Shown: one piece after another, positions 1 through 907 of the stretch
How the letters are laid out: the number at the start of each line of letters is the position of its first letter
How positions within the stretch are numbered: the first letter of the stretch is position 1
Origin: Sulfurospirillaceae bacterium
Lineage (GTDB): Bacteria > Campylobacterota > Campylobacteria > Campylobacterales > Sulfurospirillaceae
Length of the DNA stretch: 64,000 bases
Direction of reading: 5' to 3'
Assembly: GCA_028692875.1 (NCBI GenBank)
Contig: JAQUWL010000006.1
Location: 16,169 to 80,168, forward strand
Notes under the pieces: generated by a model
The model's database searches: none
What the model was told of the DNA's origin: nothing
What the model saw: the letters and a program-made list of their open reading frames with translations, nothing else
Made by a program: the position numbers and the translations under genes

Positions 1-691
1 AACCGTTAATAGTACACTCTACTTGACGAGCACCATTTTCGATACATGCCAAAGAGTTAGCAACCGCAAGACCTAAGTCATTATGGCAATGCACCGACAA
101 TATGGCACGCTCTCCTACAAACTCATGCAAAGACTTTATGATAGCACCCATCTCGTTTGGCAAACGATATCCAACCGTATCTGGAATGTTTAGCGTGGAA
201 GCCCCTGCATTGATAACTGCATCAAGAACCTCTTTCATAAAGCCAACATCACTTCTTCCAGCATCTTCACAACTAAACTCAACATCATCACAAAAGGTTT
301 TTGCATACTGTACCGCTTCAATAGCCTTTTTAATGACTTGATCTGGAGTCATTTTTAATTTATACTCCATGTGAATTGGGCTTGTCGCAATAAATGTATG
401 GATTCTTCTAAATTTTGCTTTTGCAACAGCTTCGCCTGCGGCTTTAATATCTTTTTCAAGAGACCTTGCCAACGAACATACCGTACTGCTTGTAATCTGC
501 TCACTAATTCTCGAAATTGCGTCAAAATCGCCAGGGCTTGCTGCTGCAAAACCTGCCTCAATAATATCAACACCCAATTTTTGTAGTTGCAAAGCAATTT
601 GAATTTTCTCTTCTGTATTCATCGAAGCACCAGGGCTTTGTTCGCCATCTCTTAATGTTGTATCAAAAATTTTAATCATATTTGTATTCAT
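1..691 (-). CDS. leuA: 2-isopropylmalate synthase, 3' end beyond window
   Basis: Condenses 2-oxoisovalerate and acetyl-CoA in the first committed step of leucine synthesis (cytoplasmic). Reading leftwards from the ATG at 691, the protein begins [21 protein letters not shown]; the [12 protein letters not shown] motif is the metal/substrate signature of the LeuA/homocitrate synthase family, and HCHNDLG further on supplies the metal-binding histidines. About 230 N-terminal codons are present; the rest lies left of position 1. An AAGGA ribosome site lies 8 bases upstream of the ATG. The 216-base gap in front holds a promoter and a leucine-rich leader ORF, so expression is probably leucine-controlled. 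Identity is certain; the regulation is inferred. Confidence 0.95.
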
Positions 692-739
692 TATATATCC
701 TTATTTTTTTGGTATTTTCTTATAAAAAGCGTGGTTTGG

Positions 740-835
740 CTAAAGACAGAGGAGCAGTTGCAGGAGAGAGTTTTTAATCTCAATTTTTGGTAAAATTTTT
801 ATGGAACATATGACGCCAATATCGACACTGTGCAT
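740..835 (-). CDS. Putative leucine leader peptide of leuA
   Basis: A 31-codon ORF, ATG at 835 to TAG at 740, with an excellent ribosome site (AAGGAG six bases before the ATG). The peptide starts MHSVDIGVICSIKILPK and its last nine residues are SLLQLLLCL, giving six leucines in the last eight codons before the stop. It lies between a TATAAT box and leuA, the position expected of an amino-acid-biosynthesis leader peptide. Leucine starvation would stall ribosomes in the run. The segment just after the stop (737-729, AAACCACGC) is followed by five U in RNA and can pair, with one mismatch, with 887-879 (GCGGGGTTT) near the predicted transcript start. The ORF and leucine run are seen directly; attenuation is inferred. 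Confidence 0.7.
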   Translation of the reverse strand: MHSVDIGVICSIKILPKIEIKNSLLQLLLCL

Positions 836-901
836 CTTTTTCTCCTTTTTTCACATATAGTCTCTTCGCACAAGGAGTAAACCCCGCCCATAGATGGGGT
901 T

Positions 902-907
902 ATTATA
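902..907 (-). promoter_or_regulatory. Predicted leuA promoter -10 box
   Basis: A perfect TATAAT reads leftwards immediately after the pssA stop codon. No good -35 is seen, which is normal for Campylobacterota sigma-70 promoters; the upstream bases are A/T-rich. Transcription would begin near 895, giving a leader of about 200 bases that carries the leucine-rich ORF before leuA. Confidence 0.5.

Follow-up and report, generated by a model that had tools for sequence, protein, structure and literature searches.

What does a short open reading frame ending in a run of leucine codons do directly in front of leuA, and by what means might it act on that gene? The locus lies in the window, the whole stretch of 64,000 nucleotides of Sulfurospirillaceae DNA analysed here, to which all coordinates refer. 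On the minus strand a gene ending at 908 is followed by a TATAAT box, a Shine-Dalgarno (SD) sequence, the leader ORF and leuA, with 48 nt between the leader stop and the leuA ATG (Table 1), and the leader SD was rated strong on inspection of the sequence. An original prediction made from this DNA had described the 31-codon ORF, its ribosome site and leuA 48 bases on, and its coordinates and all the letters it quoted are correct. Because a run of Ns interrupts leuA just outside the window (L001, G000:C43, left of 16169), the leuA frame is only 249 aa in the assembly.

Table 1. Features of the leuL-leuA region in the window.
Feature	Coordinates	Strand	Basis
Probable leuL-leuA promoter, -10 box TATAAT	902..907	-	sequence; transcript start estimated at ~895
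AGGAGA, leader Shine-Dalgarno and predicted 5' arm of the SD:Leu-codon helix	841..846	-	sequence, duplex, covariation
leuL leader ORF, 31 codons, MHSVDIGVICSIKILPKIEIKNSLLQLLLCL, then stop	740..835	-	sequence, conservation
LPKIEIKN codons, conserved, candidate nascent-chain motif	770..793	-	comparison of relatives
Leu run CTC CTG CAA CTG CTC CTC TGT CTT	743..766	-	sequence
TCTCCT, predicted 3' arm pairing with AGGAGA 846-841	762..767	-	duplex, -9.3 kcal/mol in the window
Spacer between leader stop and leuA, poor in G; candidate zone of Rho loading or termination	692..739	-	base composition
AAGGA, leuA Shine-Dalgarno	698..702	-	sequence
leuA (2-isopropylmalate synthase), N-terminal 230 aa inside the window	2..691	-	sequence, ATG at 691

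A leucine leader upstream of leuA

We compared 156 leuA upstream regions, comprising the window, 29 relatives from a first sample, eight named Campylobacterota contigs and 118 further regions from the family and order, the order sample holding 168 genomes with a LeuA match, with upstream regions taken from 100 genomes outside the family. L141 was left out of this set, the script having found no leuA match there (its translation shows no leader), and L137 and L154, with unlikely scan-picked ORFs, were omitted from the pairing and Leu counts. Identical rows were merged to give ‘distinct’ sets of 60 rows (over 21 codons), 63 rows and 109 SD/run pairs. In 109 of the 156 regions the scan picked up a leader rich in Leu and preceded by an SD, against 1/156 reverse strands and 30/780 shuffles, and the leader ORF is therefore real and widespread. 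Conservation upstream of leuA, a check put forward with the original prediction, thus supports the leucine leader peptide proposed there, as do its position, its SD, its rare Leu codons and the published Campylobacter LeuL. Three features described below are not part of that prediction: a conserved motif in the peptide, pairing of the SD with Leu codons, and a spacer poor in G.

LeuL was predicted in the Epsilonproteobacteria from the C. jejuni primary transcriptome, and this account describes orthologs in most Epsilonproteobacteria having leucine genes, rare Leu codons in LeuL, C. jejuni leader RNAs that end shortly past the leader stop, and attenuation as the proposed mode of control (PMC3847290, 2013). 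A later account reports strong LeuL initiation peaks in C. jejuni from initiation profiling, and its tBLASTn searches recovered leuL, as a rule, from no organisms other than C. jejuni or related Campylobacter (PMC11955535). Judged by its sequence, the window ORF is a member of this known class, being an SD-bearing ORF next to leuA within the 20-35 aa range (31 aa, 48 nt from the gene) with several rare C-terminal Leu codons (six Leu after LPKIEIKN, five of them CTC/CTG). Since the ORF belongs to LeuL as these accounts present it (PMC3847290; PMC11955535), the leader itself is not new, and the remark in the original prediction that such a layout was not known to be described for this organism gives way to a leader class already described for the group. 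What appears to be new is the selected peptide block, the predicted pairing of the SD with Leu codons and the hairpin-free G-poor spacer, none of which is mentioned in the passages of PMC3847290 and PMC11955535 compared here. LPKIEIKN used as a literature search term matched no paper.

The LPKIEIKN block and the choice of leucine codons

The motif LPKIE[I/T][K/R]N-x-Leu-Leu occurs in the leaders of 65 of the 156 regions, in lineages f1, f4, f10, f11, f19 and f21. It is present throughout f1g1 (1/1), f1g3 (23/23), f4 (9/9), f10 (2/2) and f21 (1/1), partial in f19 (12/13), f1g4 (8/9), f11g15 (7/9), f1g2 (1/3) and f11g55 (1/2), and absent from f1g5 (0/5), f6 (0/21), f9 (0/18), f16 (0/8) and the remaining small groups. 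As a degenerate DNA pattern it was found in 92 of the 398 genomes of the order, in exactly one copy each, with no match to the reversed pattern in any of the 398. The match lies just upstream of leuA in 91 of the 92, the exception being G313, where match and leuA are on separate short contigs. The motif was missing from each of the 72 named sequences upstream of leuA that came from outside the order; one of these loci, L082, is labelled Desulfurellaceae and may belong to the same phylum.

In the 60 distinct rows L, P, K, I, E and the last N of the block never change, although every codon is synonymously variable. The pN/pS of LPKIEIKN was 0.034, compared with 0.34 and 0.42 for the preceding five-codon blocks, the value of 0.034 being biased downward by a search expression that permitted some substitutions and not all; for comparison, the catalytic LeuA stretch FDTTLRDG gave 0.033. 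Synonymous sites at the motif are near saturation (pS 0.85). That LPKIEIKN is kept while synonymous change is free indicates that selection acts on the amino acids, and such purifying selection close to a putative stall site is a property of arrest peptides. Two f11 variants lie outside the motif search, L200 with LTKIEIKN and L205 with the motif gone, and both retain a leader.

The spacing between motif and Leu pair is constant, with no gap in the 60 distinct rows, and the lengths before and after vary. This constancy suggests that, during decoding of the Leu codons, the motif would sit in the upper exit tunnel in the manner of arrest peptides and in keeping with the general geometry of the tunnel, and the conservation of the motif across many related bacteria suggests that the growing peptide may itself aid ribosome stalling. 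The C-terminus of the leader is not conserved, and 17 of the 60 rows have just two or three Leu after the motif.

The leaders of f6, f9, f14 and genus g5 use other peptides. Those of f9 (L176-L190, L228-L230) share a block of their own, KSVN[S/T], ahead of the Leu run, and other families may therefore own conserved pre-Leu peptides. In a LeuA tree built from 46 rows the motif is distributed patchily, with 11 changes of which at least six are forced by well-supported branches, so that either it arose early and was lost many times or it has travelled together with leuA. Since the motif has been lost or replaced in many lineages, the nascent chain would not be essential to the LeuL class.

The codons that follow the motif are rare ones. 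CTC, CTG and CTA together make up 20.8% of the Leu codons in 55 window ORFs, and in the window leader CTC or CTG serves for five of the six Leu that follow LPKIEIKN (P for at least five of six, 0.0019). In motif-bearing relatives the first two codons of the run always encode Leu. Of 63 distinct rows, 51 have CTC for the Leu that comes directly after N-x; the next codon (codon 10) is CTG in 50 and CTA in 13, with no other codon. In f4 eight of nine leaders use CTA, which accounts for 3.1% of Leu codons (CTG 33.7%), and in f1g3 all 23 use CTG, 6.9% of Leu codons. The Leu inside LPKIEIKN is encoded by TTA or TTG in 51 of 60 rows, as against 5 of 251 Leu codons in the run. Codon choice thus tracks local rarity, which points to slow decoding, that is, to sensing of charged tRNA. 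The G000 draft gave 31 tRNA matches (L263-L293), among them tRNA-Leu with anticodons UAA, GAG and CAA; a tRNA for CUA/CUG was not found among the matches read, nor were His and Ile tRNAs, and because a draft that lacks the latter is probably missing tRNA genes the isoacceptor argument was dropped.

Self-pairing, terminators and the spacer

The leader SD is predicted to pair with the first Leu codons, and covariation over 122 leaders supports this pairing: the energy of the leader's own SD:Leu duplex averaged -10.74, compared with -9.57 for swapped partners, and beat all 200 swaps. An initial comparison had been weak (own -10.6, swapped -10.2) and support came with all 122 leaders. Within f6 the own pairing beat 300 of 300 swaps; swaps were equally good in 14 of 300 for g5, 31 for f4, 34 for f11 and 37 for f9, and in 91, 112 and 188 of 300 for f1g4, f19 and f14, lineages that give the pairing no support, the test being uninformative in f1g3. 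Consensus folding recovered the SD:Leu helix in f1g1+g3 (z -4.8), f4 (z -11.2) and f11g15 (z -4.4), and did not recover it in f19, f6 or f9. L157, which has an unusual SD flank, forms 10 contiguous pairs with its own run, a number reached with 0 of 108 foreign runs; L169, L168 and L138 have unusual SD flanks without a matching partner. In the window the pairing is just 6 bp, with an energy reached by 44 of 113 ordinary genes when the best of four windows is taken.

The original prediction had placed the output of the leader in a long-range terminator, in which GCGGGGTTT (887-879) pairs with AAACCACGC (737-729) ahead of TTTTT. The letters are right and 8 of the 9 positions pair, with a duplex energy of -8.0 kcal/mol; the terminator role did not survive, as 28.6% of shuffles gave an equally good best 5'-to-3' duplex, and the helix is not conserved. 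In 33 of the 65 motif relatives the distance from the estimated start site to the SD is below 12 nt, so that the 5' segment is often missing. For the other 32 the mean z was -0.28, with three below -1.9 (L011, L118, L126), and the RNA folding that had been suggested as a check gave z-scores of -1.26 to 0.41 in the window. With a helix no better than shuffles and half of the relatives too short at the 5' end, the long-range terminator is unsupported and we consider it extremely improbable.

The G+C-rich hairpin and U-run that a classical leu attenuator carries between leader and leuA are absent from that interval in the window, and no hairpin with a U-run follows the leader in any of the 65 motif leaders. 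Folding from the leader 3' end to leuA gave a z of -0.49 in the window, Rfam returned no match up to an E of 5 for positions 1-2500, and Pfam and NCBIfam returned none for the leader. Consensus folding from the Leu run to leuA found nothing in f4, f19, f6 or f9, and in f1g1+g3 a trivial 2-bp pairing for which every shuffle scored 0 and z is meaningless. Individual lineages have structures of their own. In f11g15 (L193, L201, L202, L204, L206-L208) a short hairpin GCTAC..GTAGC overlaps the end of the Leu run together with the leader's stop codon (consensus-folding z -9.1). In f6/Sulfurovum (L033, L157, L159, L160, L165, L168, L226) a post-leader hairpin TTTCTAAT-ACC..GGT-AAATTAGA, in some followed by CAATTTTT, is perhaps a true attenuator hairpin of that family only. 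In f1g3 (e.g. L004, L122, L125) a 5' stem-loop of the GAGGTAAAG..CTTTACCTC type, variable in sequence, lies directly behind the promoter, and in f1g1+g3 the folding energy of 20 of the 24 5' segments is -7 kcal/mol or below.

The spacer between leader and leuA is poor in G, which makes up 3.9% of it where the leader has the motif (65 leaders) and 6.4% where it does not (55), compared with 16.6% in 180 intergenic controls from the same genomes. More C than G is seen for 63 of the 65 motif leaders against 70 of the 180 controls (p 1.8e-21, the rows not being independent), and a predominance of C over G in unstructured RNA near the leader stop is a property of Rho-dependent leaders. Among motif lineages of seven or more, spacer G ranges from 0.7 to 7.5%, as against 11.1-23.2% in controls of the same lineage; in f9 the controls are themselves low in G (9.0%, spacer 4.8%). 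A Rho domain, and with it a rho gene, is present in the genome. Given the lack of a hairpin terminator, the G-poor spacer and the Rho domain, termination of the Rho type would be the most economical output, although the spacer could reflect merely a need for unstructured RNA. In f9 (L176-L190, L228-L230) a TATAAT lies within the last 60 nt between leader and leuA in 16 of 18 regions, compared with 4 of 65 in the motif group, and may be a second, leader-free leuA promoter.

A proposed leucine sensor and its relatives

Taken together, the leader probably acts as a leucine-starvation sensor ahead of leuA, with stalling assisted by the nascent chain and an output of the Rho type; we infer the stalling, the action of the nascent chain, the dependence on Rho and the response to leucine. 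A ribosome would load at the strong leader SD and, when leucyl-tRNA is scarce, would stall at the rare CUC-CUG/CUA codons right after LPKIEIKN, where the nascent chain in the exit tunnel may strengthen the stall or its selectivity. The stalled ribosome would mask the Leu codons, preventing them from pairing with the leader SD, and would shield the C-containing, G-poor RNA near the leader stop, such that RNA polymerase continues into leuA. With ample leucine the ribosome would finish and depart, the Leu codons could close the leader SD, and on the resulting ribosome-free leader transcription would end before leuA without an intrinsic hairpin, most likely via Rho. More tentatively, and with slightly less than even confidence, we regard LeuL of Campylobacterota as a composite sensor in which an ancient arrest motif, LPKIEIKN, is joined to rare Leu codons, a self-closed start site and a Rho output in place of a hairpin; it would then be a leucine-tuned arrest peptide serving a biosynthetic operon.

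A plain codon-starvation leader, in which the Leu codons alone matter and LPKIEIKN is kept by descent or for a minor or unrelated role of the peptide, is a rather unlikely alternative. In its favour, classical attenuators require codons only and 57 leaders without the motif, in many families, keep Leu runs before leuA. It sits poorly with a block that stays fixed across six family-level lineages at near-saturated synonymous sites, and with the motif leaders that have so few Leu codons after it. The conserved part of the peptide lies 3-18 residues away from the putative stall codon, as in arrest peptides such as TnaC, which senses tryptophan, and LeuL might likewise sense free leucine in the tunnel, a stall at high leucine repressing leuA; the short Leu runs of f4 and f19 would suit this. 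Rare Leu codons tuned lineage by lineage are a better fit to slow decoding on low leucyl-tRNA, and we hold direct sensing of leucine to be improbable.

Strong conservation of amino acids in an ORF that, where it bears the motif, always adjoins leuA might also be expected of a functional small protein that works in trans, with LeuA as one possible target. We think this very improbable, as the motif is locked without gaps to rare Leu codons while flanking lengths vary, and the C-terminus is unconserved. The starvation sensor with an assisting nascent chain remains our preferred reading. Leader peptides of amino-acid operons are usually seen as codon counters that drift outside their regulatory codons; in LeuL, eight residues next to the Leu codons have been kept by selection in six family-level groups even as the codons encoding them changed. 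If LPKIEIKN is a true arrest motif, it would offer a natural and testable case of nascent chain and codon starvation acting jointly, and a hairpin-free attenuator would be widespread in the order to which Campylobacter belongs.

The attenuator of the enterobacterial leu operon has a run of Leu codons in a leader ORF before leuA, followed by a terminator hairpin with a U-run. The window leader shares the Leu run ahead of leuA, but lacks the hairpin and U-run and any Rfam match and encodes a different peptide. In E. coli trpL the ribosome site of the leader is shut by pairing with the distal leader, and closure of the leader SD by a downstream leader segment is likewise predicted here, with the difference that the partner is formed by the regulatory codons themselves. 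E. coli tnaC is under Rho control at its leader stop, which is a candidate here. It also has conserved leader-peptide residues near the stall site (tnaC, PMC8429421), which is putative here. Among the differences, leuA is biosynthetic rather than catabolic and the putative stall site here carries rare cognate codons. Closest is the epsilonproteobacterial LeuL, with its 20-35 aa ORF, SD, position before leuA and rare C-terminal Leu codons (PMC3847290; PMC11955535), from whose description in the passages compared the present leader differs in LPKIEIKN, in the predicted SD:Leu pairing and in the G-poor spacer. The range of leuL given in PMC11955535 is centred on Campylobacter by tBLASTn, whereas the LPKIEIKN motif found here extends over six family-level groups.
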